50,348 nt of DNA, taken from the NCBI GenBank assembly GCA_017548125.1, contig JAFYNK010000038.1, positions 1 to 50,348 of the forward strand, in the 5' to 3' direction. Within the stretch, counting starts at the first letter, position 1. Each line of letters opens with the position of its first letter. The stretch is from Bacteroidales bacterium. Its GTDB lineage: Bacteria > Bacteroidota > Bacteroidia > Bacteroidales > F082. The notes below the pieces were generated by a model. The model had not been told where the DNA came from, searched no databases, and was given only the letters and a program-made list of their open reading frames with translations. The position numbers and the translations under genes are program-made. This document shows, piece by piece, positions 9,401-47,306 of this stretch.

Positions 9401-9754
9401 TGGAGCTGTGCTTATAGCATCGCTATGGAATACCATATCAGCGTCTGTATAAGCTTCCCAGTTTGTCAAAGATTCTGTAGTAGTGTTTTTCAAATAGAAT
9501 GTAAGGTTTCTTGTTTGCGTCACATTTACTTTAAAAGCGATTTTTTCGATTGTGCCAGCAGCATGGTTGATTTCGCTTGCTGTGTAAACGTGTTGGCTAA
9601 GTTGGTAGTTAGCTCCGAAAGCAATTGGATAATAGACATTATAACTTGTCGCATCACCTCCAATTGTAACTTCATCTTGTGCGTTAAGCACGTTTAAATT
9701 CATTCCACCCAAAAGGGCAAAAATCATCAATAAAAAAGTAATTTTTTTCTTCAT
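3470..9754 (-). CDS. Giant T9SS-secreted adhesin-like protein, 2094 aa (paralog 2 of 3)
   Basis: Signal peptide residues 1-25 (NVLNA|QDEV). Order of modules: the paralog-family N-terminal beta module (about 28-195, with FEYTGGNILL), a fibronectin III domain (about 200-285), a second copy of the beta module (about 288-470, again FEYTGGNILI), and an Ig-like stretch. A choice-of-anchor-J/cleaved-adhesin domain begins near residue 683 (YDFEDGSLEDF). Fibronectin III and carboxypeptidase-regulatory-like repeats follow, then a second anchor-J domain near 1433 (EGFENGGNLPDGW) and a WNNPNNWS segment near 1621. A T9SS type A sorting domain occupies about 2030-2094 (IQIIDVMGRMVY, ending TQKIVIL). It is probably exported by T9SS and anchored to surface lipopolysaccharide; binding to host or matrix is inferred. 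It forms an operon with the small gene at 3108-3473. Confidence 0.93.
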   Translation of the reverse strand: MKKKITFLLMIFALLGGMNLNVLNAQDEVTIGGDATSYNVYYPIAFGANYQLSQHVYTASEINHAAGTIEKIAFKVNVTQTRNLTFYLKNTTTESLTNWEAYTDADMVFHSDAISTAPTDGWITFELDTPFEYTGGNILLTSADNTGSYTYVWSAGKAYKTLSRNATLYVNGSSPVSASGGFSSTRQPSIRFTFGEAQDDLEPATPTNLVATAVNHNSISLTWDEAENAKSYNVYQNGTSIGFASTTSYLVEGLNANTEYCFTVTGVRGQKESAASEQACAKTAKAPLVKEVLVGAGDATGDYIPTYTYYNYSTTQQIYTADELGFGAGNVTKIAFYNNGSAVSRNIDVYITNTTKDSFTGGYDMVNMTAEDKVYSGTYTFVNGWCEIAFSKNFEYTGGNILICVDDNTGSYVQAPTFKGNNTANCRANYRFDDSSVNNYDPLNVAGKYTLALNQNNQIKFFVESQPGVTPNVESVNFAEVIRLGNYWSEKYTAPSAEVKVENIGADITSIESSNDFFVLSENIDLTASNIVFNVTCKTETSYAGTQNGNIVISYEIEGEASIVEIPVSATAYAPEQADVIELATNVTFTEGTYTNTPDFATLHDDYILPGEATEGSTPDAVYHFTMENEGTLTVNVTGTNAVAAVYKAGDIDLENQAGPSSNNNYEGEVAEVAPTAPTSFFYDFEDGSLEDFNLVEYDGNNNHWQITNEYGVENKFLVSYSYTTGVNKADNYIITKSLYGINANSKLTFDAKCGGQWNGWDNVMVKVSTDGEVFTLIETVEPNSQSWIYGNTVDLGAKLAEKGLAYGDYYIALHHQQSTDIYSIQIDNLRLSDGSVKNRGAQIDAVQYPAGEYYLVAAAEDAFSVTIETTTLPVPEAVTYTAPENGAMEQNNPKLSWTFGKYTSEYQVLLGTTNPPTEVVVDWSSELATSFQTEGLTNQTTYYWQVNARNVVGTTTGEVYSFITPLNKATELAVTDAELYPGETTTLTWTAAESATSYNIYVNEVLFAEAIEGTSFELTNLPHNVNPGNAITVTAVHTLGESAHSEAVNVKMAGTFNLVVNVKDTEGNAIENAVVAFNTINYYDEYYQLVPAIDTLYTDADGKATQTLALPCEYGDPNWTYASLAVNISKEYANVAYFYINSNEVSNGEVYVKDITLEYVGPEYVETDKGIYVAGEDMMVLTWNKVEGAIAYNIYKQGEYSYETYEYEYTLINTETITDTTFTVESLEYIPGSYFAAYAVSAVYSFGESAKTDKLVEITGKGLISGTVTDGTNPIEGAVVAISYYNEYSGVSRNYTTTTAADGSYEINALVGEYDLTVTRYDYKDYSYSGIESVYGITTVLDIVLEQNAVVEFDVTAVESGEYVNVSWTAPENATSYKVYRRDSEGNVTRIYSDVTSLTATDYNWSTLENGTYEYGVSACIEVNKSYTEGFENGGNLPDGWTTYHTGTSSTFDWTPTTYAYNVSPTEGSYAVYSNNTNGSGSSTYGEFYLVAPLYDLTGIENPVVSFYYHTPQYSTSYSGTNYTNKLSVLVSTESATGPWTEVWNNERGHTTGWTWDAADLTAYKNQQVYIAFCTDVKYGRCSAIDYVVFPSISISSESAVNWSAPVEKKASIEFTAAEDNDWNNPNNWSTGVVPTGENVLISANAEVSSEADVENLKLQSGCSLTVKNGGALTVTGTITNNGSIVLNDGGQIFQSNENVYVTYNMNIVNPTTWGVSEDGWQFIASPFNGSSIINFTGFSWAPKSYDLYKYDGTAEGAEWNNHKDGGFEEAFVNGRGYLASYETLDKATLSGYLYNKDYFNFTEVTYTAGEGNELANFHLLGNPFPFNMDWSNVALENVYPAFATVDPLTGGYVKSIESGITTIPVGDGFFVEAIADDPSISYGTASKSRGEKYEYINVIASGRQGSNNVIIKLAGKEEKGFSKLENLNQSIADIYVKNNGRQYSVLGYDRDVTEIELFFDAKEMGNYNISIEPNGKFQNVTLVDRKTGAETNMLLDSYSFTATANENPDRFFIRLDNGQSAIDGNFVYQSGDELIVEAEGTIQIIDVMGRMVYNNDVESSNNRINVSNLKGATYIVRNISENVVRTQKIVIL

Positions 9755-30555: not shown

Positions 30556-31491
30556 TTATTTCTTGAATAAGTCGCTTAATGATTCGTAGTTTTCAACGCG
30601 TTTGATAACTTCTGCGAAGAGAGGAGCTGTTGAAAGGACGTGAATCTTGCTGCTTGGGTTTGTCAATGGAATAGTGTCTGTTACGATAACTTCGTCGAAT
30701 ACTGAGTTTTCGATTCTTTCCATAGCGCTACCTGAGAAGATTGGGTGAGTTGCGACAGCGCGGACGCTGCGAGCACCGCTATCTTTAATTAATTGACCAG
30801 CTTTTGTGATTGTGCCAGCTGTGTCGATCATATCGTCGATGAGGATAACATCTTTATCTTTAACGTCGCCGATGAGCAACATTTGTTCGATAGCATTTGG
30901 TTTTGAACGTTGTTTGTGACAGATTGAAAATACTGTGTTCAACATCTTAGCATAAGAAGCAGCGCGACGAGTACCGCCAGCGTCTGGAGATGCTACCATT
31001 AAATTAGGTAAGTTAAGGCTTTCGATATAAGGAACGAAAATCTTTGAAGCGAAGATATTGTCAACAGGAACGTTGAAGAAACCTTGGATTTGGTCAGCGT
31101 GGATGTCCATAGTGATGATACGTGTGACACCAGCTGTTGTCAATAAGTCAGCCATCAATTTAGCTGCGATACTGATACGTGGGCGGTCTTTTCTATCTTG
31201 ACGTGCGAAGCCGAAATAAGGGATAACGGCGATGATTCTACGTGCTGAAGCGCGTTTTGCAGCATCAACCATCAACAATAATTCCATCATGTTTTCTGTT
31301 GGTGGGAATGTTGATTGAATCAAAAAGACATCTCTTCCACGGATGTTTTCATCGAAACTTGGTTGGAATTCACCATCGGAGAAAACCAAAACGCTTGATT
31401 CTCCAAGAGGTTTGCCATAATGCTTAGCGATTTCATCTGCTAAATAGCGAGTGGCTCTACCTGAAAAAATCGATACTAAAGGCTCTTGCAT
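30556..31491 (-). CDS. prs: Ribose-phosphate pyrophosphokinase
   Basis: 311 residues from ATG 31491. It makes PRPP from ribose 5-phosphate and ATP for nucleotide, His and Trp synthesis. The start MQEPLVSIFSGRATRYLADE fits the family. An upstream in-frame extension to 31557 is rejected because the -7 element (31525-31532) lies inside it. Other motifs: GEFQPSFDENIRGRDVFLIQ, PYFGFARQDRKDRPR, TMDIHADQIQGFF and the PRPP loop VILIDDMIDTAGTI. Its promoter is divergent from that of tRNA-Leu. Confidence 0.96.
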   Translation of the reverse strand: MQEPLVSIFSGRATRYLADEIAKHYGKPLGESSVLVFSDGEFQPSFDENIRGRDVFLIQSTFPPTENMMELLLMVDAAKRASARRIIAVIPYFGFARQDRKDRPRISIAAKLMADLLTTAGVTRIITMDIHADQIQGFFNVPVDNIFASKIFVPYIESLNLPNLMVASPDAGGTRRAASYAKMLNTVFSICHKQRSKPNAIEQMLLIGDVKDKDVILIDDMIDTAGTITKAGQLIKDSGARSVRAVATHPIFSGSAMERIENSVFDEVIVTDTIPLTNPSSKIHVLSTAPLFAEVIKRVENYESLSDLFKK

Positions 31492-31524
31492 GACGTTAAT
31501 TTTTATGTGTTCAAAAATTTTTTG

Positions 31525-31558
31525 CAAAAATAATAAAATTTTTCTTTGCCGTAACAAA
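31525..31558 (-). promoter_or_regulatory. Promoter of prs
   Basis: On the minus strand TTTG (31555-31558), a 22-base spacer and TATTTTTG (31525-31532). The leader is about 30 nt. It overlaps the divergent tRNA promoter. Confidence 0.55.
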
Positions 31559-31574
31559 AAAATTATTACTTTTG
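31545..31574 (+). promoter_or_regulatory. Promoter of tRNA-Leu
   Basis: TTTG (31545-31548), an 18-base spacer and TACTTTTG (31567-31574), with the tRNA starting 29 bases after the -7 element. Confidence 0.65.
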
Positions 31575-31602
31575 CACTCGCAAATCGATCATTGAAATGA
31601 AT

Positions 31603-31686
31603 GCCTAGGTGGCGGAATTGGTAGACGCGTCGGTCTCAAAAACCGATGAGGTAACACTCGTGCCGGTTCGATCCCGGCCCTGGGTA
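31603..31686 (+). tRNA. tRNA-Leu (anticodon CAA)
   Basis: An 84-base class II tRNA. Acceptor arms GCCTAGG / CCTGGGT (two G-U pairs) with discriminator A. Anticodon stem TCGGT / ACCGA encloses loop CTCAAAA with anticodon CAA at 31637-31639, reading UUG. The long variable arm GAGGTAACACTC and T arm GCCGG-TTCGATC-CCGGC are complete. The 3' CCA is not encoded. Confidence 0.95.
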
Positions 31687-31690
31687 CGAA

Positions 31691-31724
31691 GAGAGCTTCA
31701 GAATTTTCTGAGGCTCTTTTTTTG
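31691..31724 (+). terminator. Terminator of tRNA-Leu
   Basis: An 11-bp stem AGAGCTTCAGA / TCTGAGGCTCT (one G-U pair) with a 4-base loop, followed by seven T. Confidence 0.9.
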
Positions 31725-31730
31725 TTTTGG

Positions 31731-31825
31731 CCAATGGCTAAGGGCTAAGGGCTAAAGACTAATGGCTAAAGACCAAAGGCTAAGGGGAAAAACACTCAAT
31801 TTCTCAATTCCTAACCAAATTCATT
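31731..31825. repeat. GGCTAA-type word repeat
   Basis: Tandem variants of AATGGCTAA, GGGCTAA, GGCTAAAGAC (31733-31786), then TCTCAATTCCTAACC. Related reverse-complement words (TTAGCCATTAG) occur at 29831-29841 and 40608-40620. No coding potential. Confidence 0.65.
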
Positions 31826-31830
31826 TGTTT

Positions 31831-31904
31831 TATTCCTAAAATTGTAAAAATAGGAATAATATATGTAGTTTTGTTGCATTAAAATACAAAAATAGGAATA
31901 ATAT
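31831..31904 (+). promoter_or_regulatory. Promoter with candidate operator (TAGGAATA repeats) of the Fic gene
   Basis: TTG at 31842-31844, a 21-base spacer and TAGTTTTG at 31866-31873. An inverted pair TATTCCTA (31831-31838) / TAGGAATA (31851-31858) flanks and overlaps the -33 element. A third TAGGAATA (31893-31900) lies in the leader and supplies the AGGA before the ATG. The 17-bp word AAAAATAGGAATAATAT is perfect in both direct copies (31846-31862 and 31888-31904). The arrangement suggests repression by a dimer binding at the promoter, possibly the Fic protein's own N-terminal HTH-like domain. Confidence 0.6.
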
Positions 31905-32823
31905 GAATTATATTAAAGTTTCAGAAGCAGCTGCTAAATGGGGAATTTCTGCAAGACGAGTAAGACTATTGTGTGAACAAGGTCGCATTGCCGGCGTAGA
32001 GAGAAAAGGTAATCTGTATATGATTCCAGAAGATGCAGAACAACCTATAGATGCAAGGACTTACACAAAAACAAGTCTCAAGAAATCATACACACCTATT
32101 CTAGAACAGATCAATTCGCTTAAAAAATCTTTGGATTCATACCGCCCATTAACTCCAGCAGAAGTTGATGCAATCAAAGAGGTTTTCCTTGTCGAACACA
32201 CCTATAATAGTAATGCCATTGAAGGTAATACTCTCACTTTACAAGAAACTGCACTCGTTCTTCAAGGTGTCACAATAGACAAAAAACCACTAAAAGACCA
32301 TTTAGAGGCAGTAGGTTACAAAGAAGCATTCCAATATGTTGAGGAACTTGCAAAACAAGATAAAGATTTATCCGAGTTTGACATAAAAAGCATCCACAAC
32401 TTGGTATTGGCGGACCGTCCCGAAGACAGAGGCACCTTCAGACGTGTCAACGTACGCATCGCTGGCGCATTAACAACACCTGTTCAACCTTATTTAATAG
32501 AGCCCAAAATAGAAGAATTGCTAAATAATTATAATGTATGGTCTAAAAGCATGCACATCGTTGAACGTGTCGCGAATTTCCATTTACAGTTTGAAAGCAT
32601 ACATCCATTTATTGACGGCAATGGCCGTACAGGCAGATTGATAATGAATCTTCAGCTTATAAAAGAAGGCTTACCAGCTATCAACATCAAATTTGCTGAC
32701 AGAAGAAAATATTACGATGCTTTTGACGAATATTCTAGAACCGGTTCATCTGAAGCAATGACAAAATTAGTAGGAGAAGCCGTTATTTCAAGATTAAGAG
32801 AAATGATTGATATGATAAAATAA
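31903..32823 (+). CDS. Fic family AMP-transferase, class II, with N-terminal HTH-like domain
   Basis: 306 residues. The N-terminus (about 1-45) resembles a MerR/excisionase-type winged helix: VSEAAAKWGISARRVRLLCEQ. The inhibitory helix motif S103-x3-E107-G108 (SNAIEGN) lies before the catalytic core, defining class II Fic. The FIC motif is complete: H234-PFIDGNGRTGR. The enzyme transfers AMP (or another nucleotide moiety) to a target hydroxyl and is auto-inhibited by Glu107. The N-terminal domain and the operator-like repeats suggest transcriptional self-control. It stands at the left end of an accessory block just after a tRNA gene. The target is unknown. Confidence 0.9.
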   Translation: MNYIKVSEAAAKWGISARRVRLLCEQGRIAGVERKGNLYMIPEDAEQPIDARTYTKTSLKKSYTPILEQINSLKKSLDSYRPLTPAEVDAIKEVFLVEHTYNSNAIEGNTLTLQETALVLQGVTIDKKPLKDHLEAVGYKEAFQYVEELAKQDKDLSEFDIKSIHNLVLADRPEDRGTFRRVNVRIAGALTTPVQPYLIEPKIEELLNNYNVWSKSMHIVERVANFHLQFESIHPFIDGNGRTGRLIMNLQLIKEGLPAINIKFADRRKYYDAFDEYSRTGSSEAMTKLVGEAVISRLREMIDMIK

Positions 32824-32859
32824 CATATTGCCTAACACATATTTAAGAAAGCATTTATC

Positions 32860-32900
32860 AATATCCGTTGTGGTTTTTATATCACAGCGGATATTTTTTT
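32860..32900 (+). terminator. Terminator of the Fic gene
   Basis: A 13-bp stem AATATCCGTTGTG / CACAGCGGATATT (one G-U pair), 10-base loop, then a T-run. It isolates the Fic gene from the unit that follows. Confidence 0.9.
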
Positions 32901-32932
32901 TGAATTTAGCGAAACAATGTCCCAATAGAGTG

Positions 32933-32961
32933 TTGTTCGTTTGATTTTTTGTGTAACTTTG
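32933..32961 (+). promoter_or_regulatory. Promoter of the structured RNA / SPFH operon
   Basis: TTG (32933-32935), an 18-base spacer and TAACTTTG (32954-32961). Transcription would begin near 32966, at the first hairpin. Confidence 0.7.
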
Positions 32962-32964
32962 CGG

Positions 32965-33240
32965 TGCTATTGGATAAATAGCAGACATATTGAAAGTGTT
33001 TTCGCAGTCCTTGTTAGAAAATGTGGAAGTTTTCAAAGCTGAAGGATGTACGAACAGCACTCACTCCTTGTATAGCTATGTGGCTATGCACTCTCTGTGC
33101 ATATACCCCATACTGTCCAAGTGTGGGGCATTGTATCGTTTATTTCAGCTTAGGTCTTTCCACAACCTTCTAACGGATAAACAGAGAGCAACTCCACACT
33201 TTCTTTTTTTATATAAACATTATAATCCTTTGGAGTTGGG
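32965..33240 (+). ncRNA. Candidate structured leader RNA or ncRNA upstream of the SPFH operon
   Basis: About 280 nt between a promoter and the ATG at 33258. Visible helices: TGCTATT/AATAGCA (32965-32983); long-range GTTAGAA (33013-33019)/TTCTAAC (33168-33174) with GTGGAA (33023-33028)/TTCCAC (33158-33163). Nested inside is AAGCTGAA (33036-33043)/TTCAGCTT (33144-33151). Local hairpins are TATGCAC/GTGCATA (33085-33103) and CCCCATAC/GTGTGGGG (33106-33128), then CAACTCCA (33189-33196)/TGGAGTTG (33231-33238). An alternative pairing AAGTGTGG (33119-33126)/CCACACTT (33194-33201) would break two of these. A TTG-initiated 86-codon frame spans the same interval but lacks a ribosome site. I do not recognise a known RNA class. 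Confidence 0.6.
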
Positions 33241-33257
33241 GTGTTTGTAAAAATGAT

Positions 33258-34352
33258 ATGAACATAGCCGATGTTGTCAAATGGGAGGTAAACACAAGAG
33301 AATTAGTTCATAAGTTCGAATCGGATTCGTTGCGTCTCGGTTCGCAACTTGTCGTTTATCCAAGTCAAACTGCCTTATTCGTCAAAGGCGGTGTTATCGC
33401 TGATGAATTCCAAAGCGGTACATATACAATAAAATCCGAAAACATTCCAATTCTCGGAAAACTGATAAACATACCTTTCAATAACGAAAGTCCTTTCAAA
33501 GCTGAAGTTTGGTTCGTCAATCAGGTTTCTATACTTGATTGCAAATGGGGCACTGCTAACAATATTCAAATTGAAGACCCAAAATATAAAATCATTGTAC
33601 CTGTAAGAGCCTACGGACAATATGGTTTCAGCATTACATCACCTCGCACATTCTTGGAATCATTTGTTGGAAATATGTCATCGTTCTCAACTGAAAAAAT
33701 GATTGAATATTTCAAGGGAATCATAATATCCAAACTTACAAGTATCATTTCCGAAAAACTTCTTCAAGACGATGTCTCTGTCGTTAATATAAGCAGTTAT
33801 GTTGATGAACTATCACAATACAGCGAAATGACTCTTAACAAGTTTTTCCTTAGATATGGCATTACATTAAGCAATTTCACTATAATGTCTATATCCGTCA
33901 AAGATAACGATGAGAGTTTTAGAAAACTTAAAGAAGCGAAAGATTTAGCCGCTAAGATTTCCGTTGTAGGAACTCAAAACTACAAAATGGAAAGAAGTTT
34001 CGATGTTCTTGACAAAGCCGCTTCTAATGGAGGTGGCATAATGGGTTCATCACTTGAACTTGGTGCAGGTTTGGCAGTTGGAACACAAGTCGGACACATG
34101 GCTTCAGAACACCTTAATATAAATCCTCAGGCAGCTCCACCGATTCCTGTTACATTATACTATTTGGCAATAAACGGAACGCAACAAGGTCCTTACAATT
34201 TCGAGCAGATAAAGTCAATGATTACTTCTAATTCTGTTACACCGAATGTTCTTGCATGGAAAGAGGGAATGGCAGCTTGGGCTTCATTATCTTCACTTTC
34301 TGAATTTCAAGCATTCTTTAGACAAGTACCGCCACCGATACCAATGATTTAA
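33258..34352 (+). CDS. SPFH/Band-7 protein with C-terminal GYF_2 domain
   Basis: 364 residues, no signal peptide. About 20-225 is an SPFH-like domain of the 'virion core protein'/YdjI type: LRLGSQLVVYPSQTALFVKGG, FQSGTYTIKSENIPILG, and later ISSYVDELSQYSEMTLNKFF. A Gly-rich stretch (ASNGGGIMGSSLELGAGLAVG) leads to a GYF_2 domain at about 300-352 (YYLAINGTQQGPYNFEQI, VLAWKEGMAAWASL), a fold used for peptide binding. SPFH proteins form membrane-associated rings or scaffolds. It is the first gene of an AT-rich seven-gene run and lies 18 bp after the structured RNA. Confidence 0.85.
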   Translation: MNIADVVKWEVNTRELVHKFESDSLRLGSQLVVYPSQTALFVKGGVIADEFQSGTYTIKSENIPILGKLINIPFNNESPFKAEVWFVNQVSILDCKWGTANNIQIEDPKYKIIVPVRAYGQYGFSITSPRTFLESFVGNMSSFSTEKMIEYFKGIIISKLTSIISEKLLQDDVSVVNISSYVDELSQYSEMTLNKFFLRYGITLSNFTIMSISVKDNDESFRKLKEAKDLAAKISVVGTQNYKMERSFDVLDKAASNGGGIMGSSLELGAGLAVGTQVGHMASEHLNINPQAAPPIPVTLYYLAINGTQQGPYNFEQIKSMITSNSVTPNVLAWKEGMAAWASLSSLSEFQAFFRQVPPPIPMI

Positions 34353-34363
34353 TTTGAAATATT

Positions 34364-34708
34364 ATGAAACAGTTCATTATCACATTAGGAGCGATATTTC
34401 TATTAGTCAATATCGCATTTGGACTTGCATTGAAGTCATTTGAGACATTCAATCTCGTTTTCAGCAGTGGAGTTATTGTTGCTACCACAATCATTCTCTT
34501 CTTGGTTGATTACATCAAGATGAAAGACGCTTTCAAAGTGTCACTATTCTTAATCAATGGCATTTGCGGATTGATAGAATACATCATAGCATTGATTGCC
34601 GAAAGAGATATGCCGAACAATTGGTATTATGTCATACTGATTGTCATTCTCGCTTTTCAGTTAATTCTGATTACGACAACAAACATCACATCAAAGAAAA
34701 TTTCTTAA
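34364..34708 (+). CDS. Hypothetical four-TM membrane protein
   Basis: 114 residues, almost all membrane: four hydrophobic segments (about 5-24, 31-48, 57-77, 87-105), with a short charged end. No family recognised. It follows the SPFH gene after 11 bp and is probably its membrane partner by position. Confidence 0.7.
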   Translation: MKQFIITLGAIFLLVNIAFGLALKSFETFNLVFSSGVIVATTIILFLVDYIKMKDAFKVSLFLINGICGLIEYIIALIAERDMPNNWYYVILIVILAFQLILITTTNITSKKIS

Positions 34709-34729
34709 AAATATTAAAAACTATTTAAT

Positions 34730-34939
34730 ATGAATGCTATTACAAGAGAAAAATTACTCAAAGCAGGGTTCACTGAGAGTATTATGAATGGATTTAAAAT
34801 ATACACTCGTGATGGATTTTCGCTTCTTCACAATGATATAGCATGGTGTCCTTGCAATACAGACTTTGGTGAAGTCACAATACAAAAACTGTATTTGAAT
34901 ACAATGGAGCAAATAGAACATCTTATTCTTCAAAGTTAA
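34730..34939 (+). CDS. Hypothetical small protein (69 aa)
   Basis: 69 residues, soluble, no signal peptide. ITREKLLKAGFTE and WCPCNTDFGEVTIQKL are visible, including a CPC pair; the end (NTMEQIEHLILQS) is helical. Family unknown. The gene has tight spacing on both sides (21 and 12 bp), which supports its being real. Confidence 0.65.
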   Translation: MNAITREKLLKAGFTESIMNGFKIYTRDGFSLLHNDIAWCPCNTDFGEVTIQKLYLNTMEQIEHLILQS

Positions 34940-34951
34940 AAATATGTAATT

Positions 34952-36097
34952 ATGGCAACACAATTTACACCATGTCCTGCTTGTGGAGCAGTAGGCAAAG
35001 TTGGTAGCGCATGTCAATTTTGCGGAACAACAATCATATTAAGAGAAGGCACAACATCATCAACAGAGCGCATTCCACAAAAAAGAACCGTCACACCTCA
35101 ACAATATGCTGAGAAAATATCAATCTATCACAATATAAAACCATTAGGCGAAAAGCTATTATGGGTTTCTATAGGGAATCAATATGGAATTGTGAATATG
35201 AATGGAGATATTGTTTATCCTTTGGGAAACGATGAAATATGTATAGCATCTGAAGACACCATAAAATTGGGGCATAAATATGAGGAAACATTGATAAATG
35301 CTTATAAAAAATGGAATCCGTCATTAGGAATATGGGAGTACAAGGAAGCTATAACAAGTGAGAAGTTTGTAACGAAGCGATATTTCAATCCTGAAACTGG
35401 TGCGTTTGCAAATTTAGATGGATTTGTTAGCGATAAGGATAATCCTGGCAAATTACACCGTGTTGATGTAAATAAAGGGTGGAAACCAATAAACACGTAC
35501 ACGAATTTAGATGGCAAAGTACATTCGTATGATTATGCGGAAGAAATAGTAATAAAATGCGATGATTCATTCATTCAACAAAGGAGCATATTCCTCCTTC
35601 ACCAAGGCAACAAGTGTTCTCTTTGGATTCTTTATAACCAATATCTTGATGAAGAATATTTTGACAGTATTGAATTATCAGATGAACAATATGACGACAT
35701 AATGAGTCACGACACAAAATCTCCAATATGTGTATTAGAAGGAATTTACGAGAACTATAAACTTGAAAGGACTAATACCAGATTACAGATAGCATTACGA
35801 ACAGTTGAAGATATAGATGTTGTTCTAACTTTAGCAAAAAAAACCTATGACGAAGATGGAGACGCTGAGTGGATAGAGTACGACTTTAACCATATATACA
35901 AGCAGTGGTGTAAAGCAATAAAAAAACAAGTTCCACAAGACAATGCCCCAAACATTAATGTTAATGAGAAAGATTCTAAAGATAATATCACTGAAGACAC
36001 AGAAGAAAATAATGGTCTATGGGGATACTCCAAAAAAGAATGGATTATTACAATCACAGGTTTGATATTGTGGACGCTATACATAATATTTTTTTAA
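34952..36097 (+). CDS. Zinc-ribbon, tail-anchored protein of unknown function
   Basis: 381 residues. An N-terminal zinc ribbon has Cys8, Cys11, Cys21 and Cys24 (CPACG then CQFCGT). A WG-repeat-like strand pair follows (GNQYGIVNMNGDIVYP, about 72-87), then a long domain I cannot place. The C-terminus is an acidic linker (EKDSKDNITEDTEENNG) and a single terminal membrane helix (WIITITGLILWTLYIIFF) preceded by GLWGYSKKE. The same kind of tail ends the product of 36382-37001 (GGPWSDPKQ plus a helix), suggesting a shared membrane partner or a common origin. Confidence 0.72.
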   Translation: MATQFTPCPACGAVGKVGSACQFCGTTIILREGTTSSTERIPQKRTVTPQQYAEKISIYHNIKPLGEKLLWVSIGNQYGIVNMNGDIVYPLGNDEICIASEDTIKLGHKYEETLINAYKKWNPSLGIWEYKEAITSEKFVTKRYFNPETGAFANLDGFVSDKDNPGKLHRVDVNKGWKPINTYTNLDGKVHSYDYAEEIVIKCDDSFIQQRSIFLLHQGNKCSLWILYNQYLDEEYFDSIELSDEQYDDIMSHDTKSPICVLEGIYENYKLERTNTRLQIALRTVEDIDVVLTLAKKTYDEDGDAEWIEYDFNHIYKQWCKAIKKQVPQDNAPNINVNEKDSKDNITEDTEENNGLWGYSKKEWIITITGLILWTLYIIFF

Positions 36098-36142
36098 AAT
36101 CAAAGACATCAATATAAATCAATTAATTATAAAACATAAATT

Positions 36143-36385
36143 ATGAATATTATTATCAATAAAAGCATACAGCTATCCATAGAAAATAAAAAGGATTTTT
36201 CAATATTATTAAATGATATTTTAAACAATTTTGAAAATATAAAATCAATTTCATTCGACATAGAAACTTATGATATGGCTTTTAACAAAACATATTTGAA
36301 TTTAGAAAAACAAGAACGAATTGATGTAAATTCTCTCCAATACAAAAAACTTATGGATATACTTTCTAAAAACAATAAGATATGA
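36143..36385 (+). CDS. Hypothetical small protein, paralog of the one at 37044-37289
   Basis: 80 residues, acidic and Asn-rich, no signal peptide. It aligns over its whole length with the 81-residue product of 37044-37289: FSILLNDILNNF versus FVNFLNELLDNF, SFDIETYDMA versus SLQIETKDMA, and YKKLMDILSK versus YEKLMDALSK. Its stop overlaps the next start as ATGA. Function unknown. Confidence 0.7.
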   Translation: MNIIINKSIQLSIENKKDFSILLNDILNNFENIKSISFDIETYDMAFNKTYLNLEKQERIDVNSLQYKKLMDILSKNNKI

Positions 36386-37001
36386 ACAATACTAATTATT
36401 TTGCAAAAGTTGCTCAACAAAATAAGTTAAACGAGTTATCAGATATTCTTAAGGATATTGAAATTAACCAATCATTACTTGCTCAAATTAAAAATTATAT
36501 GCAAGAAGTTAAAGCAAATCCTGAATGTGGAAAGTATTGGTATGTAAAATTATATGATGTAGGAGAAATTGGATTTTACATCCAAAACAATACAATACAA
36601 TACAAGTAGAAGGATATATATTACCCAATGAACATGGTGTCAGTTTGGTAGCCTCGGGATATGATGATGATAAAAAATTTAAAAATTGTAAATTATTTGA
36701 TCTATTTGAAGAATGTCAAGAAGAAGAGTATATAAATTGCCATTATATAAACTTTTCTTTTGATGCAGAATCTTTATGCGTTGCCATTCAACATTTGGCA
36801 GAATGTTACGGATGTCCTTCTGATAAAATCAAATTAGAAGCCGAACCATTCGGTTCTCCAAATATAAAAGACATCATTTCAGATACAGGTACAGATACAG
36901 AAGGTCTTTCCTCAGATGGCGGTCCATGGAGTGATCCAAAACAATGGTTAATTGCAGGTATTCTTGGCATTATATGGATACTATATTGCATTTTATCTTA
37001 A
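36382..37001 (+). pseudogene. Tail-anchored protein gene split by a 5-bp repeat frameshift
   Basis: Two frames, 36382-36609 (75 codons, ending NNTIQYK) and 36645-37001 (118 codons from a weak TTG), are adjacent. They rejoin when exactly one ACAAT unit of the tract at 36587-36605 is removed (…NNTIQVEGYILPNEHG…), giving about 204 residues with a C-terminal membrane helix (PKQWLIAGILGIIWILYCIL). The start is coupled to the preceding gene by an ATGA overlap. This may be phase-variable, a true pseudogene or a sequencing error. No known family; an acidic and Gly/Ser linker precedes the tail, as in the product of 34952-36097. Confidence 0.75.
36587..36605 (+). repeat. (ACAAT)n pentanucleotide tract
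   Basis: Three full ACAAT units plus ACAA. Loss of one unit, or gain of two, restores the reading frame of the gene at 36382-37001. Confidence 0.85.
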
Positions 37002-37043
37002 TATCTTCAATATTTTTATTTATTAACCATTAAATTAAGTATT

Positions 37044-37289
37044 ATGAAATTTTATCTTAACAACATCACAGAACCTATTGAGATAAATAAACAAGAGTTT
37101 GTAAATTTTCTTAATGAATTATTGGATAACTTTGATTCTTTAAATTTAGTTTCCTTACAAATTGAAACGAAAGATATGGCTCTCATAAAAAAATGCAATA
37201 ACGAACAAATAGCTATAGATGAAAACAATCCTTTATATGAAAAACTAATGGATGCGCTATCTAAAACAGATATGAAACCACATATATAA
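37044..37289 (+). CDS. Hypothetical small protein, paralog of the one at 36143-36385
   Basis: 81 residues. Same layout and motifs as its paralog (FLNELLDNF, IETKDMAL, LYEKLMDALSK), at clear but not close similarity. It closes the AT-rich operon. The two copies flanking the split gene could be variants of an immunity or adaptor protein; that is only a guess. Confidence 0.7.
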   Translation: MKFYLNNITEPIEINKQEFVNFLNELLDNFDSLNLVSLQIETKDMALIKKCNNEQIAIDENNPLYEKLMDALSKTDMKPHI

Positions 37290-37373
37290 CCATTTATTTC
37301 TAAAAGAACAAGACTATAACACTGTTGTACCCTGCTCTTAACATATAAATGGCACAAAATAGCTATGTCACAA

Positions 37374-37406
37374 ACAAGACTCCCGAAATGATATCGGGAG
37401 TCTTGT
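37374..37406. terminator. Palindromic terminator between convergent genes
   Basis: A 13-bp perfect stem ACAAGACTCCCGA / TCGGGAGTCTTGT with a 7-base loop. Flanking sequence is T-rich on the plus side. It separates the SPFH operon from the DUF1016 gene. Confidence 0.75.
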
Positions 37407-37417
37407 TGTTTGAGAAG

Positions 37418-38452
37418 CTATTTCATATTTCTTTTCTTTATCTCATTTGTAATCATTGCTTCTAGTTTGTTTTGTGGCAAGAGATATTGAAATTCAGCAA
37501 CGCCTATTGGTTTGTTGATGTCTTGTAAAGCAAGTTCTACTTCCAAATGATCTTTGCTGGCGCAAAGAATAATACCAATGGAAGGATTCTCATCTGGTGC
37601 TTTTTCCAATTTATCTAACAATGATAAATAAAAGTTCATCTTGCCAATATATTCAGGTTTGAATTCGCCTATTTTCAGTTCAATGGCAATCATAGAACGT
37701 AATTTACGATGAAAAAACAATAGGTCAACGTGATATTCCTTATCATTATATGACAAGGTATGTTGGTTTCCGATAAAACTGAAACCATTGCCTAATTCCA
37801 TAATAAAAGAGGTGATTTTATTGACTAAATGTCGTTCTAAATCCAATTCTTTCAAAGGCTCAATGGCATCAATGAATCCAAGATGATAGTGACTTCTGAA
37901 AATCTCATTGGCATATTCTGCATTTTCTTCAGACATGGTAATTGCAAAATTGTTAGTCTTCTCGCTTGCTTGTATTGAAAGATGATATTTTGATTTCAAA
38001 GCGAGAAGTAGCATACTACGAGACCAATTCTTTGAGATGACTTCATTGGCGTAGAAAAGAATATGCTCAGATGATAAATCGTTGTTTAATAATAGTAGAT
38101 TATGACCCCATGGCAAAACTGCAACAGCTTGTTGCAGTTTTGTATCTTCTTGATAATAGCGAAGATAGAAACGCTTCATCTCCCATAAGTTTCTTGGTGA
38201 CACCCCCATATTAGGATATCTCTTTTTCAGATCTACTGATAATCTTTTTACAATTTGATCTCCGTGTTTACTGTCGAGTTTGCGTTCTTCTAAAAGTTTG
38301 CCAATCTCCCAATGAGAAGATATGACATGCATATTGATTTGTTTAGCAATACGAACTCGTGAAGATTCTATAACTGCGATAGTATCGTACAGTAATTCCT
38401 GATAATCCTTTTCATCGTAATTTCCAGATGAACTTAAAAAGTTATTTCTCAT
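37418..38452 (-). CDS. DUF1016/YhcG family protein with PDDEXK nuclease domain
   Basis: 344 residues. An N-terminal DUF1016 helical domain (about 15-150: RVRIAKQINMHVISSHWEIGK, NMGVSPRNLWEMKRFY, LPWGHNLLLL) leads to a PDDEXK fold (about 200-340). The active-site pattern Asp243 ... Glu258-x-Lys260 (YHVDLLFFH, AIELKIGEF) is intact. These proteins are common beside restriction-modification and mobile genes; a nuclease role is predicted. It lies at the right end of the accessory block, on the opposite strand, with its own promoter. Confidence 0.9.
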   Translation of the reverse strand: MRNNFLSSSGNYDEKDYQELLYDTIAVIESSRVRIAKQINMHVISSHWEIGKLLEERKLDSKHGDQIVKRLSVDLKKRYPNMGVSPRNLWEMKRFYLRYYQEDTKLQQAVAVLPWGHNLLLLNNDLSSEHILFYANEVISKNWSRSMLLLALKSKYHLSIQASEKTNNFAITMSEENAEYANEIFRSHYHLGFIDAIEPLKELDLERHLVNKITSFIMELGNGFSFIGNQHTLSYNDKEYHVDLLFFHRKLRSMIAIELKIGEFKPEYIGKMNFYLSLLDKLEKAPDENPSIGIILCASKDHLEVELALQDINKPIGVAEFQYLLPQNKLEAMITNEIKKRNMK

Positions 38453-38478
38453 GATTTCTAAATTTCGGTTAATACTGC

Positions 38479-38509
38479 AAAGCTACAGCCTCATCAATCT
38501 TTTGTCAAG
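38479..38509 (-). promoter_or_regulatory. Promoter of the DUF1016 gene
   Basis: On the minus strand TTG (38507-38509), a 20-base spacer and TAGCTTTG (38479-38486). The leader is about 25 nt. The rest of 38510-38743 is AT-rich with a separate -7 element for rlmN. Confidence 0.75.
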
Positions 38510-38656
38510 CGTTTGCAAAGGAAATGTTTCGCTTTTAACATTTTTTAACATAAATATTAATGAAATTAAGAAAATTGTGTTAAAATTTGTTAAGACTAAG
38601 TCCTCTGAGTTTCTGAATTTCTAATAAAAACCTCCAATGGTTCTGAGTTTTTTTCT

Positions 38657-38664
38657 TAAATTTG
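38657..38664 (+). promoter_or_regulatory. -7 element of rlmN
   Basis: TAAATTTG, about 80 bases before ATG 38744. No clear -33. Confidence 0.5.
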
Positions 38665-38743
38665 CACACTTCTCAACGAAGTTTTAACTGGACAAAGACT
38701 ATTCTGTTGTCCGTTGTCTGTTGACCTATAAAAATATCATATC

Positions 38744-42884: not shown

Positions 42885-45800
42885 TTATTTAACGACATTC
42901 ACTCGTTCAACAGCGACGCCGTTTTCTGTTATTATACGTACCATATACAAACCAGATTCGTATTGTGACATATCGATGACTTCATTATCAGAGTCAACGG
43001 CTACGTCATAAACCATCTGACCTAATGCGTTGATGATGCTGATACGTCTCATATCTTCTGCTGAAACATTCAAGTTAGATTTTGTTGGGTTTGGATAAAC
43101 CATCAAATCTTCGAGTTCGTTTTCAACTATAGATTCGCCTTGGCATGTCAAGCATGACATAGCATAGTAAGAAACGTTAGGCAAGCCGCCGTGAACCACT
43201 TTAAGGCAGTATTCTGCGTCAGCGTCAGCTTCATCGGTGAATGTGTTGCCTGTAACAGGTTCGCTCACTACGAGTTCGCCGTCACGGTAAATCATAGTAC
43301 CGATGATATCGTTTTCCATTCCTGGATATGTACCTTCGTAGTTAACGAAAGCGCGGATGTTCCAAGTGTAGTTCCATTCGATGTCGGTCCACATATCCCA
43401 CCATGTTTCGCCGTCTTCTGAGATCCAGCGTCCGTTAGGATTGCCAGTGTTAGCGCCAGCTGGAGCGATATATTGTCCGTTATAGTTGTAGAATACAATC
43501 CAGATGTTTTCGTTGCCGATAGGAATTGCTGTTGTCAAATCAAACTCAACATATTGTTTTGAGCCGTAGCAATAATAAGGCTGAGTATGAATCTTGTTGA
43601 TAGGAGCTGTATCGCCGCCTGTATAGATTTGTATTTCACCATTGTGATATGCATAGTCGTAAGTCATGACTTTGAGCAATTTCTTGCCAACGTAAGGAGC
43701 CAAGTCGGCTGCTGGGAACATGATACCCCAGTAGAATGAGCCGCCGCTGTAACGACCGACGCCGTCAACATTTTCGCCATCGTCATAGAATAACGCGTTG
43801 CCTGCTGATTCGTTTTCGTGGCTTACTTCTGGCATTGTCCATGTCAAAACGTTTTTGCCGTCAACATTTTCGACTTTTATTTCTGAAGCATATTCAAAAT
43901 CATCACATTCTCTGAAAGTCCATGATGTCTTGGCAGCTGCGCTTGAACCTGTTGTGTAGTTTGCGATAACGGTTGTTGTATAGACTGCACCTTCTTCAAA
44001 AGCGTAAGCAGCGATGTCGTGTTGATAATATGGAGTTGTCACTTCATCGACTTTAGAGCCGTTTAATTTGATGGTGTAAGAAACCAGCTCTCTTGAATTG
44101 TCAGCGTCCCATTTAACCCAACCTGTTGGTGACACATAAAGATTTTCAACTGCTGACAATACTTCTTGAAGCACGATGTCAAATTCTTGAGCGTCCCAGA
44201 TTTCAACCACTTTGCTTTGATATTCTGAAGTGAAACCAGGTTTTTCAACTGTCAATTCATATTTACCCTTACGGAAGTTGTTCCATTTGTGTGAGCCTGA
44301 GTTGTTGATTACAACGATATAGTCTGTTGTCTCAACCATATTGATGAAGCTGACTGTTGTTCCCATTGCTGAGTCGCCGCTGTTTGTCTCAACATTAACC
44401 TCAACAGATGTTGTCATTCCTGTATCTATAGTGTTAGACCAAACGATAGCTGACTCATTAGAGTTATTGATGACTTTAAGGTTGTCGATACCTACGCAAT
44501 ATCCGTAATGGTTTTCATTAACGAAAGCGATATAAGTATCTTTTTGAGTATATTGTGACAAATCTACATTAGCTTCTGTCCATGTTGCCACGTCGGCTCC
44601 ATTTGTTGACCACACCTCGGTCCAAGGTCCTGTTGGTGAATTAGCGACTTTCACTTTCAACACGTTAACGTCGCCATCCCATGCTGGTGCAACATATTGG
44701 AATTTCATTATTACACTTGAACATAATGAAAGGTCAAGCGCTGATGTCACCATATAATAAGTTGATGTTGAAGCTGAGCCTTGGCTAAATGCTGAGTAGC
44801 TTCCGTCGTAAGCGTAAGTATTATATGAACTGCTCTTAACTGTCCAGTCTGAGATATAATATTCTGATTCTGGTGTTTCATACACTGTCCATCCTTGTGG
44901 CATTGAACCTGATTCGAAATCTTCTTCGAGTATTATCTTATCAACGCGATTGCCTTCATAAACAGCAGAAACGCCCCATTTGTAAGTACCTGGTTCCAAT
45001 GAACTCCATTCGTTGTCGGTGTATGTCGTTTCTGAGATGTTCTTAACGAGAGGTTCGACGATGTCGCCGTGGATGTTTGTTCTATAAACGTTGTAGCTTG
45101 TAAATGCACGTTCTCCCATTTCCCATTCAACTTTTACCGAGTTAGATATTTCTGTTGCCACAACATTTTCAACTGTCTGATAATCTTCATACATCAAGAA
45201 ATCGAGTGTTAAAGGCTGGCCATATACAAGTTCCACCTCTTCTGTCATTGTTTGATAACCTGCTGCTGTTGCAATAACGCTGTATTCACCTACGATAATA
45301 TCTTCCATATATGTTCCATCTTCGATGTGGATTTTATATGTATGTGAAACGTTATAGTCATCTCTACCAACAAAGGTAATATCGCCTGATTGAATTATTG
45401 TGTTGCCGTCTATTTCAAGAAGTCTGCCTTGTACTGTCGTTGTGCCTGTTACATAAATATTGACAAATTCAGTAGGTGCTGACTCACCATATTGATAAAC
45501 TGCTGTCACTGTGATATTATGACCGTTGATGTTATAAGGAAGTTCGTTTGTTGAATATGATAAAGTTGTAAGGACTTCATCGTTGAGTTTTACATTATCG
45601 GCATAAACATTATAACCGATGCACAATGTGTTAGAAACAGAAGGCCATGAGATAGTCACATTATCGCCTTCATAAATCATGCTGTTAGAGACAATTACGC
45701 CAGCAGGAGCTTCAAATGGTGTAGAGAACATCCATACGTTACCTGTTGTTGTTCCTGATGAGTTACGTGTGTTGACTTGCCAGAAATATGTTGTATTGTC

Positions 45801-47306
45801 AGTCAAGCTTCCTGCATTATATTGAGTTTGGAGGTTGTTAGTCCAATCTACAGCTACGTTTTGAGGAGGGTTTTGTGTTCCGAACAACACTTGATATTCC
45901 ACTGTGTTAGCGCCGAAGTTCCATGACAAAGTTGAGTTTGTCACATTTTGAGCGTTGTTGGCTGGTGTTGGGTTGCTAGCCATTGATGCCAATGGACTTG
46001 CTTCTGTTTCAATATAAAGCATGAATGACTGAGGTGCAGATGCTACGAGATAATAAGTACCTGCTGGAACCAACATGTCTGAGATAACAGCGCTTTCTTG
46101 AAGTGCGTAGTAGTTATCTGAATGAGGGCCGCCTTTTCCGTTGAAGTCTTCTTCATACAAAACAGTCTTAGCGCCTGTGGCTGTTGGTGTAACTGTCAAC
46201 ATTTGGTCTGTAGCGAAGACGAGTTTATAAACAGCGTCAGGACCGTCTTCACCACCGAATGGCAATGTATAGTTGTCATATAAATTAGCGAAGACTGGCA
46301 TAGCCAGATTAGGATATGTTGATATTGTTTCTGCCATTTCCCAGACGTCATTGCCTGTTGGATTATAAGCTACTGCTGACATCTCAACGACTTCTGTTTC
46401 ATTTGTATCGCCGTATGCAATGGTGAGCTGTCCCGTCTTGCTACCTGAGCCTGAGCCTGGAGTGATTTCAAATGTCATAGGTGTGCCATAGACTACATCT
46501 GTTGGAGTGCTTACGCCTGACAAATTGAAGAAAGCGTTTGATGATGTTATTGAGCTGATGGTCATCGCTGCGATATTTGAAGCGACACTCACTTCGTATG
46601 GAGCTTTCCATTTTCCTATAGGGCAGTATCCCAAGTTGATTGGATTAGGAGTGACTGTCACTGAAGGAACCACGTCGTCAGAGATTTCATAATCAAAAAT
46701 AACTTGGCTGTTATAATAAGGATTTGAACCAGTGTAATTACCATAGACGCTGCTTAGGCTGCCAGCGTTGTATGAATACTGCAAAGAAGCTTTATTGAGT
46801 GATCTTGGTGTTGAGCCTGTTGAGTAGGTATAGAATTTTGATTCATCTTCATAGTTTTCATACAAGGCAGTGTTGTCGATGACGCAAAGTATAGCGTTGC
46901 CGCCTTCATAGATGAAATCGTTTTGGAAAACGACTTTCGCCCATTCTCCTTCAGCGCCTGGATATGTCAACGGTCCTGAATAAACGAGATTTGTCTCTGG
47001 AATGTTAACCCAGTCCTGAGTATGAGTGAAAGACTCCTTGTCAGTATTAACCATATAAACCATGATGCTACGAGTAACGGCTGATGCATTAGCCATTTTG
47101 AAAGACACAGCTGTGATATTGCCTGCTGTTGCTAACAACTCTTCTGCTGTATAAATTTGTTGTGTGACACTGTACTTGAATCCGTCTTCAATAGGAAGGA
47201 CTCCGCTGTTAGTATCACCTTCACCAATGGTGATTTCAATTTGTGCGTTTACGGAATATGAGAGACCGCAAATACACAACATTAAAAAAAGAAAAAATCT
47301 TTTCAT
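42885..47306 (-). CDS. Giant T9SS-secreted adhesin-like protein, 1473 aa (paralog 3 of 3)
   Basis: Signal peptide residues 1-21 (YSVNA|QIEI). The paralog-family beta module is at about 22-205 (FKYSVTQQIYTAEELL, DFIYEGGNAILCV). An Ig-like stretch follows, then fibronectin III segments (LSWNFGANTVEYQVLFG, TYFWQVNTRNSSGTTTG), a carboxypeptidase-regulatory-like unit and a choice-of-anchor-J domain near 790-950 (LEEDFESGSMPQGW, VGIDNLKV). Another anchor-J-like or beta segment and a fibronectin III unit follow. A T9SS type A domain is at about 1398-1473 (LMVYPNPTKSNLNVSAED, ESGLYMVRIIT, ending ERVNVVK). Same family and export route as 1-2837 and 3470-9754, but located 33 kb away. Confidence 0.93.
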   Translation of the reverse strand: MKRFFLFLMLCICGLSYSVNAQIEITIGEGDTNSGVLPIEDGFKYSVTQQIYTAEELLATAGNITAVSFKMANASAVTRSIMVYMVNTDKESFTHTQDWVNIPETNLVYSGPLTYPGAEGEWAKVVFQNDFIYEGGNAILCVIDNTALYENYEDESKFYTYSTGSTPRSLNKASLQYSYNAGSLSSVYGNYTGSNPYYNSQVIFDYEISDDVVPSVTVTPNPINLGYCPIGKWKAPYEVSVASNIAAMTISSITSSNAFFNLSGVSTPTDVVYGTPMTFEITPGSGSGSKTGQLTIAYGDTNETEVVEMSAVAYNPTGNDVWEMAETISTYPNLAMPVFANLYDNYTLPFGGEDGPDAVYKLVFATDQMLTVTPTATGAKTVLYEEDFNGKGGPHSDNYYALQESAVISDMLVPAGTYYLVASAPQSFMLYIETEASPLASMASNPTPANNAQNVTNSTLSWNFGANTVEYQVLFGTQNPPQNVAVDWTNNLQTQYNAGSLTDNTTYFWQVNTRNSSGTTTGNVWMFSTPFEAPAGVIVSNSMIYEGDNVTISWPSVSNTLCIGYNVYADNVKLNDEVLTTLSYSTNELPYNINGHNITVTAVYQYGESAPTEFVNIYVTGTTTVQGRLLEIDGNTIIQSGDITFVGRDDYNVSHTYKIHIEDGTYMEDIIVGEYSVIATAAGYQTMTEEVELVYGQPLTLDFLMYEDYQTVENVVATEISNSVKVEWEMGERAFTSYNVYRTNIHGDIVEPLVKNISETTYTDNEWSSLEPGTYKWGVSAVYEGNRVDKIILEEDFESGSMPQGWTVYETPESEYYISDWTVKSSSYNTYAYDGSYSAFSQGSASTSTYYMVTSALDLSLCSSVIMKFQYVAPAWDGDVNVLKVKVANSPTGPWTEVWSTNGADVATWTEANVDLSQYTQKDTYIAFVNENHYGYCVGIDNLKVINNSNESAIVWSNTIDTGMTTSVEVNVETNSGDSAMGTTVSFINMVETTDYIVVINNSGSHKWNNFRKGKYELTVEKPGFTSEYQSKVVEIWDAQEFDIVLQEVLSAVENLYVSPTGWVKWDADNSRELVSYTIKLNGSKVDEVTTPYYQHDIAAYAFEEGAVYTTTVIANYTTGSSAAAKTSWTFRECDDFEYASEIKVENVDGKNVLTWTMPEVSHENESAGNALFYDDGENVDGVGRYSGGSFYWGIMFPAADLAPYVGKKLLKVMTYDYAYHNGEIQIYTGGDTAPINKIHTQPYYCYGSKQYVEFDLTTAIPIGNENIWIVFYNYNGQYIAPAGANTGNPNGRWISEDGETWWDMWTDIEWNYTWNIRAFVNYEGTYPGMENDIIGTMIYRDGELVVSEPVTGNTFTDEADADAEYCLKVVHGGLPNVSYYAMSCLTCQGESIVENELEDLMVYPNPTKSNLNVSAEDMRRISIINALGQMVYDVAVDSDNEVIDMSQYESGLYMVRIITENGVAVERVNVVK

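Follow-up and report, generated by a model that had tools for sequence, protein, structure and literature searches.

A recurrent SPFH/zinc-ribbon operon behind a candidate pseudoknotted leader RNA in Bacteroidales

Results

The window analyzed in this study is a stretch of 50,348 nucleotides (nt), contig JAFYNK010000038.1 of assembly GCA_017548125.1, and it constitutes one of the 97 contigs of the 2.73-Mb genome of a Bacteroidales bacterium (lineage F082). At 33258-37289 it holds an operon that encodes, in this order, an SPFH protein with a C-terminal GYF domain, a protein with four predicted transmembrane (TM) segments (4-TM), a 69-amino-acid (aa) open reading frame (ORF), a 381-aa zinc-ribbon protein, an 80-aa ORF, a broken gene, and an 81-aa ORF, and it is preceded by a leader with the features of a structured RNA. 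A preliminary description, made from the DNA letters of the window, had counted seven tightly spaced genes. The order, the coordinates and the tight spacing hold, with neighboring ORFs separated by at most 46 nt and one pair overlapping by a few bases, but six genes are intact and one is broken.

33258..34352, + strand: SPFH (Band_7_1) protein with C-terminal GYF_2 domain, 364 aa (PF13421, E 3.1e-45; PF14237, E 1.5e-16)
34364..34708, + strand: small 4-TM protein, 114 aa, partner of the SPFH gene, with a homolog adjacent to the latter in 15 of 20 loci, window counted
34730..34939, + strand: 69-aa ORF, not conserved; a sister genome has an unrelated 89-aa ORF at the same place
34952..36097, + strand: putative zinc-ribbon protein of 381 aa with a TM helix at its C terminus; the gene is conserved at its 5' end and exchanged in the middle
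36143..36385, + strand: 80-aa protein, paralog of 37044-37289 (phmmer, E 4.5e-10)
36382..37001, + strand: broken paralog of the zinc-ribbon/tail-anchor gene, lacking the zinc ribbon: a 75-aa piece, a frame change at 36583-36605, and a tail-anchored piece
37044..37289, + strand: 81-aa protein, paralog of 36143-36385 (phmmer, E 4.5e-10)

The identities first given to the intact genes were borne out by Pfam, hydropathy, CxxC motifs, and phmmer. The GYF_2 domain occupies residues 301-350 of the SPFH protein, in which no CxxC motif was seen by eye, the C-terminal GYF_2 standing in place of a zinc-finger motif. The hydropathy maxima of the 4-TM protein lie at 5, 30, 61, and 90. The 381-aa protein has CxxC at 8 and 21 and a TM segment at 363, and its predicted zinc ribbon is read from the CxxC pairs. 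As had been noticed from the outset, domains are recognizable in the first gene only: SPFH and GYF were the sole Pfam matches among the operon proteins, and none of these proteins scored above the cut-off in NCBIfam. A WG-like repeat spotted by eye in the zinc-ribbon protein gave no Pfam match and is not claimed. Relatives of this protein were found in the genome itself and in one other among 173 genomes of the family, and in no plasmid or phage searched. The low GC content noted before is also real, with a minimum of 27% at 36001-37000.

The leader comprises the following elements, among which the -7 element is one that we take, from its motif, to be of the Bacteroidota type.

32954..32961, + strand: -7 element, TAACTTTG, from the sequence; the transcript would start near 32968
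32968-33257, + strand: leader region, about 243 nt to the U-tract and 290 nt to the start codon
32984..33009, + strand: P0, a 5' hairpin identified by eye; similar hairpins precede other copies, also by eye
33011..33210, + strand: core of the leader RNA (model R1) with hA/hB/hC, an apical P2a hairpin, P3, P2b, and the U-tract (RNAalifold, R1, permutation test)
33120..33128, + strand: P2a, AGTGTGGGG, with a local partner at 33106-33114 or the distant partner P2b
33192..33200, + strand: P2b, CTCCACACT, then the U-tract; its pairing crosses hA-hC (pseudoknot)
33189..33195, + strand: P4a, CAACTCC, four bases of which are shared with P2b
33232..33238, + strand: P4b, GGAGTTG, 20 nt before the SPFH start codon

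That the operon has a structured leader of its own, as originally proposed, was upheld: the fold has a z score of -5.1 relative to shuffled sequences, none of 200 being as good, and it is conserved and covaries in many genomes. RNAalifold, applied to six sequences, none of which had been fetched by an RNA model, gave 55 pairs, 20 of them with compensatory change. Model R1 scores the window leader, a training sequence, at 222.7 bits. Because P2 crosses the long arm, the predicted RNA is pseudoknotted, and because four bases in the window belong to both P2b and P4a, P2 and P4 are mutually exclusive; the sharing of bases between the terminator-like P2 and P4 suggests a switch. A terminator scan of the window listed a hairpin at 32860-32895, before the promoter, and not P2, which spans a long loop.

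Compensatory change beyond base composition was found in each helix of the RNA. Sixty-six copies (54 from model searches and 12 found earlier) were reduced by 8-mer overlap to 55 non-redundant ones, with the near-identical L034 representing the window, and each 5' strand was scored against its own 3' partner and against the partners of the other copies. The scores with own and other partners were 16.2 and 8.1 for hA, 15.4 and 9.0 for hB, 15.6 and 12.7 for hC, 15.4 and 12.9 for P2, and 11.9 and 9.2 for P4, corresponding to permutation z values of 28, 18, 9, 9, and 10, respectively, none of which was reached in 2000 permutations. When the windows were moved by -400, -250, +300, and +500 nt as a control, the z values ranged from -0.7 to 3.6, the highest being for hC, and base composition therefore does not explain the covariation. 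An earlier anchor pattern for P4/P2, which missed several copies, had been replaced for the permutation test. Standing outside the 66 are L033 and L095 (copies of L034 and the window), a second hit in L129, L063:13414, L041, L062, L069, and 12 phylum hits. The evidence from P2 and P4 is the cleaner because the model by which most copies were retrieved does not contain these helices.

The RNA is widely distributed. Model R1 was built on the window, L034, L096, L097, L042, and L043, and model R2 on 20 copies, so that training copies match by construction; 14, 6, and 9 candidates were scored per genome in the family, order, and phylum searches, respectively, and the genome counts are lower bounds. 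With R1 the RNA was found in at least 44 of 173 genomes of the family (E 1e-3) and in at least 50 of 393 genomes, or 31 of 206 genera, of the order (E 1e-4). With R2 at E 1e-4 it was found in at least 40 of 395 genomes of the phylum (23 of 171 genera), of which 3 belong to the order, 28 lie elsewhere in the class, and 9 lie beyond the class. The matches in these last nine genomes are weaker (best E 5e-6 to 7e-5) and are candidates by model score. Hits were read at the locus level for 25 new loci of the family, 29 of the order, and 12 of the phylum, and the long arm was seen by eye in all of the 12 best phylum hits (1 in the order, 11 elsewhere in the class). At E 1, R2 found no match in nine loci from outside Bacteroidota.

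The RNA often occurs at more than one place per genome, and three copies exist in the genome studied here. The second (C82, L100:4267-4880) comes after what looks by eye like an integrase remnant and is followed by a TerB-like gene and a series of small genes, and the third (C80, L172:1857-2305) precedes a 97-aa ORF that resembles a helix-turn-helix (HTH) protein by eye and has no Pfam match. A copy at L061:13658 stands before a 107-aa gene similar to this 97-aa HTH-like gene. Among 99 loci of a viral collection picked by exact 14-16-mers, five contain matches to the RNA model (L272:3183-3365, L192:9932-10070, L187:4465-4598, L186:11181-11313, and L188:7439-7556; E 4e-8 to 2e-4), and mobile elements may thus carry the leader RNA.

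Comparison of the window and the scanned loci with Rfam 15 using cmscan, in one of the scans at the cut-off only, gave no match on the RNA that reached or approached the cut-off. The Rfam matches that did appear in the scanned loci (tRNA, Flavo-1, rteR, and DUF805b, with sR47, plastid elements, MIR398, and mir-36 below threshold) include none over the cut-off on the RNA, and one sub-threshold microRNA match, which overlaps the L115 copy, reached 27 of 55 bits. No description of the RNA was found in the open-access text consulted, although it might overlap with one of the thousands of candidates in one report (PMC8040213). The leader RNA is a new candidate family, absent from Rfam 15 and from the literature searched.

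Copies of the RNA stand before genes. A same-strand ORF of at least 50 aa starts within 150 nt of 50 of the 55 copies, at a median distance of 49.5 nt, compared with 12 of 55 on the opposite side; this set is biased in that six copies lie directly before the SPFH genes used to find them and another two are located in an SPFH locus. The motif TAnnTTTG occurs within 110 nt upstream of 43 of the 55 copies, versus 7% of random windows. Of the 50 first proteins, 29 seem exported or membrane-bound under a crude signal rule, which overcounts, since it marks TerB-like and LytTR proteins too. Pfam, run on 20 first proteins (19 of the 50 and that of the third own copy), recognized caspase, N6-methylase, TPR, LRR_5, LytTR, CsgG, outer-membrane, TerB, and other families, with two nuclease-like matches below the cut-off and 4 of the 20 without a match at E 0.001. 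The kinds of cargo that can be named behind the RNA are envelope scaffolds, surface lipoproteins, BspA-like proteins, caspase-like peptidases, restriction-type enzymes, and TerB operons.

What stands behind the RNA also changes at a single site. The window and genomes G076, G059, and G051 share the order Prs, tRNA-Leu(CAA), RNA, cargo, and RlmN, and the cargo is the SPFH operon with a YhcG nuclease in the window, a 154-aa lipoprotein-like gene in G076, 115-aa and 442-aa genes and more in G059, and a 155-aa lipoprotein-like gene in G051. By blastn, the window and G076 are 96% identical over 31402-33213, with no further match until 38731.

33214..38730, unstranded: segment exchanged relative to the sister genome G076; the SPFH operon and the YhcG-type nuclease gene replace one lipoprotein-like gene (blastn)

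This break in homology coincides with the end of the RNA U-tract (33210), although the short P4b can still be recognized by eye. Homology to G059 and G051 extends farther, ending at 33256 and 33253, respectively, immediately upstream of the SPFH start codon at 33258. The conserved unit at the site is therefore the RNA with or without P4. The simplest reading would be an exchange, in one direction or the other, that used the RNA as shared homology.

Exchange is also seen inside the operon when the window is compared with G054, where the RNA and an SPFH operon occupy another site, near tRNA-Arg and two ORFs that resemble serine recombinases by eye. The two are 89% identical over 32864-34724 (leader, SPFH, and 4-TM genes); beyond 34724 the small gene is unrelated, the start of the zinc-ribbon gene (34948-35140) is 86% identical, no similarity is detectable in the middle of that gene, and the two match again in the broken paralog (36478-36533 and 36743-37051). 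What has been exchanged is the middle of the zinc-ribbon protein together with its small neighbor. At 37291-37382, downstream of the operon, 92 bp match G054 at 83% in inverted orientation.

The preliminary description had taken the broken gene for a second tail-anchored protein; it is in fact a gene split by a frame change. The 75-aa ORF at 36382-36609 is not in the same frame as the piece that ends at 37001, and the two, searched separately, both match the C-terminal half of an intact 443-aa zinc-ribbon protein of the sister genome G054 (L034:9739-11067; E 9.9e-7 and 2.8e-29). The frame switches at a pentanucleotide repeat, (CAATA)4.6 at 36583-36605, a possible slippage site, and decay, phase variation, and assembly error could each account for the break. 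The product of a 57-aa gene in L042 aligns with the 80- and 81-aa proteins (33% identity), yet it is absent from the phmmer list.

To judge the recurrence of the gene set, 20 loci were compared, the window counted, whose SPFH proteins are approximately 46-95% identical; they are not fully independent, as L060 and L061 are very similar and the window and L034 share 95% identity in SPFH. A 4-TM homolog directly follows the SPFH gene in 15 of the 20, and a protein with two CxxC pairs (zinc-ribbon) is encoded in the same gene run in all 20, upstream in one of them. In three of the five loci without a 4-TM gene, and in two loci with one, the zinc-ribbon protein ends in a CFI-box-like motif. Since SPFH, 4-TM, and zinc-ribbon genes recur together, their arrangement is neither due to chance nor unique to this genome, and they make up an accessory module that recurs. 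The recurrence anticipated for the whole gene set thus applies to its core, and neither the small genes nor the broken tail-anchored gene belong to the conserved parts of the module. A more distant set (SPFH of 34% identity, a hypothetical protein, and a zinc-ribbon protein) exists in Bacteroides finegoldii, where its neighbors are pgeF, obgE, and an adenylate kinase gene. A related SPFH gene is located on a Vibrio coralliilyticus plasmid (L174) near a divergent TIR-domain gene.

The RNA lies directly before the SPFH gene in 8 of these 20 loci by model and in two more (L062 and L069) by eye, the latter two matching neither R1 at E 10 nor R2 at E 1. Detections before SPFH genes that are independent of training are L036, L038, and L068 (R1) and L041 (R2); L068 is missing from the R2 list, though it is in the R2 training set. 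Six of 20 R1 matches were dropped, four as opposite-strand matches of true copies and two as short (L041:15338 and L096:6840), and weak R2 matches (E 0.03-0.04) also lie on the opposite strand in L034 and the window.

The neighbors of the operon are a Fic-type gene at 31903-32823, which lies outside the exchanged segment, and a YhcG-type gene at 37418-38452, which strongly match the PADLOC candidate families PDC-S04 and PDC-S02, respectively. Elsewhere in the window, very long minus-strand ORFs occupy 3470-9754 and 42885-47306 (2094 and 1473 aa).

Discussion

We consider it somewhat better than an even chance that the operon encodes a YdjI-type membrane scaffold placed behind a cis-regulatory leader RNA that is reused by exchangeable operons. 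The recurrence of the module and the mosaic structure of the zinc-ribbon gene were computed here, and the scaffold function that we infer from them would be as follows. The 4-TM protein might tether an oligomeric SPFH protein, with GYF at its end, to the inner membrane, and the scaffold might display or recruit the tail-anchored zinc-ribbon protein, which varies between genomes. Such a scaffold probably serves the handling of membrane or envelope stress without PspA.

Covariation of the RNA, the exclusive pairing of P2 and P4, the position before genes, and the change of cargo behind the same RNA are likewise results of computation; termination, a ligand or trigger, the direction of control, and recombination in the RNA are parts of the proposal built on them. 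If P2a is kept in its local hairpin (33106-33114/33120-33128), the polymerase would read through, and if P2a pairs with P2b, the resulting pseudoknot, ending in the U-tract, would stop transcription. In the full-length mRNA, P4 might take up P2b. Accessory operons would be exchanged behind the RNA, which stays in place and offers homology for the exchange.

Several observations weigh against this proposal. The polymerase passes the U-tract before it reaches P4b, which rules out a simple role of P4 in deciding termination. The genes downstream have no common function, which would be odd for a metabolite riboswitch, and 4 of the 12 best phylum hits are without an ORF of 45 aa within 150 nt. The z values of hA-hC lean, as R1 contains those pairs and favors hits that pair. 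In 12 of the 20 SPFH loci no model-supported RNA lies directly upstream (L044 has no upstream sequence to search), and the RNA and the module are consequently separable. Close SPFH relatives (E 1e-100 or lower) are sparse, occurring in 6 of 173 genomes of the family, our own counted, and in 5 of 393 genomes of the order. The structure models of the zinc-ribbon protein (pLDDT, the predicted local distance difference test score, 40) and of the 81-aa protein (57) are both poor.

The leader RNA might instead be a trans-acting small RNA with its own promoter and terminator, in which case a recombination hot spot would explain the genes behind it without any regulation of them. The promoter motif and the U-tract are consistent with this idea, as are the constancy of the RNA at one site while the genes behind it change, the lack of a shared function among those genes, and the best phylum hits that have no ORF nearby. 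P4, however, pairs the RNA with sequence past the U-tract and covaries, the great majority of copies stand a short distance before a same-strand ORF, and the homology of the window to G059 and G051 continues through P4 to near the start codon. A trans-acting RNA is therefore an unlikely explanation in our view, perhaps one chance in a few. That the leader is a repetitive DNA element of the miniature inverted-repeat transposable element or repetitive extragenic palindromic type, whose hairpins reflect transposition and not an RNA function, would agree with its presence in more than one copy per genome, three in our own. We regard this as highly improbable, because the copies have diverged while their helices were kept by compensatory change, their orientation to genes is biased, and the pairings include a pseudoknot.

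With regard to the operon itself, the preliminary description had suggested a role in phage defense, in which the SPFH scaffold and variable zinc-ribbon proteins would act as sensor and effector. The cargo is indeed variable, low in GC, and exchanged, the Fic and YhcG neighbors match PADLOC candidate families, and the G054 operon lies near tRNA-Arg and the recombinase-like ORFs. Nevertheless, positive evidence for defense came neither from PADLOC, where eight pieces of the operon gave a sole weak match, to SPFH over 40 residues (E 5.6e-4), nor from one scan of the viral collection, which yielded no SPFH relative, nor from the neighborhoods: the flanks of the other loci seem to consist mostly of ordinary genes (by eye, uncounted), and the related set of B. 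finegoldii sits beside the pgeF, obgE, and adenylate kinase genes. A defense system is thus improbable. A polymorphic effector/immunity pair, made up of the zinc-ribbon/tail-anchored and 80-aa genes with displaced remnants downstream, would account for the conserved N terminus and exchanged middle of the zinc-ribbon protein, for the broken downstream paralog that has no N-terminal zinc ribbon, and for the gene of the 80-aa family behind each copy here, with the similar 57-aa gene in L042. This explanation too has little probability, since no significant match to a toxin domain was obtained in Pfam, NCBIfam, or PADLOC, no secretion signal was seen by eye, phmmer found no 80-aa homolog in the sister locus, and the C-terminal anchor with the zinc ribbon at the other end would suggest a protein of the cytoplasmic face.

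Returning to the cis-regulatory leader, there is in our estimation an even chance that it is the founding member of an unrecognized, phylum-wide class of pseudoknotted regulatory RNAs that serves as a switch for any accessory operon recombining behind it. The RNA is kept by compensatory change across many genera of the order, and it also matches in other orders of the class and, more weakly, outside it. If the proposal is true, it would amount to a layer of general control over the accessory and surface genes of Bacteroidota from the gut and the environment, and the leader RNA would be a testable orphan switch.

Known RNAs offer partial parallels. In common with attenuator and riboswitch leaders in general, this RNA forms a complex 5' leader with competing stems, one of which is followed by a U-tract, but it has no Rfam match that reaches or approaches the cut-off, and the genes downstream of it share no function. 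The DUF805b RNA of Rfam (RF02914) is a small cis-regulatory element and can sit between such a leader and its gene, as in L113, where its match of 30.1 bits is below the cut-off of 35.6; it differs, however, in its length of 35 nt and its structure, is absent at the window leader, and does not cover the leader RNA. DUF805b elements downstream of the leader RNA were observed at L113:1693-1723, L129:1440-1474, and L148:2373-2405, all below the cut-off, and one above it (49 bits) at L130:2580-2614, approximately 0.9 kb from the leader RNA.

For the protein module, the comparison with Psp-like systems made in the preliminary description proved apt, and its word "undescribed" was too strong for the core. 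SHOCT domains are reported to occur most often with the Band_7_1 family (PMC3581485), and Band_7_1-SHOCT proteins share with the operon SPFH protein a PF13421 scaffold with a small C-terminal domain, which is GYF_2 here instead of SHOCT. The closer likeness is to pspA-ydjGHI of Bacillus subtilis. The B. subtilis genome, used as a control, matches PF13421, the same Pfam family as the operon SPFH protein. YdjI, as reported (PMC8581546), is an SPFH protein that has no hydrophobic anchor itself and requires two membrane proteins, YdjG/H, so that in both systems an SPFH protein is encoded with membrane proteins, which serve as anchors in the case of YdjI. The 4-TM protein may be a counterpart of YdjG/H as the membrane protein encoded beside SPFH. 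YdjI has a C-terminal zinc-finger motif, whereas the operon SPFH protein ends in GYF, and the putative zinc ribbon resides here on a separate, variable, tail-anchored protein in an operon with a leader RNA. Moreover, PspA (PF04012) had no match at E 0.001 in this genome (completeness estimate 100), while control matches were obtained in 9 of 14 genomes. Given the likeness to YdjGHI and the undetected PspA, the operon most likely works like the YdjGHI part and yet is not a Psp system; judged by its sequence, it would be a PspA-free relative of the YdjI scaffold, one partner of which is exchanged between close relatives.

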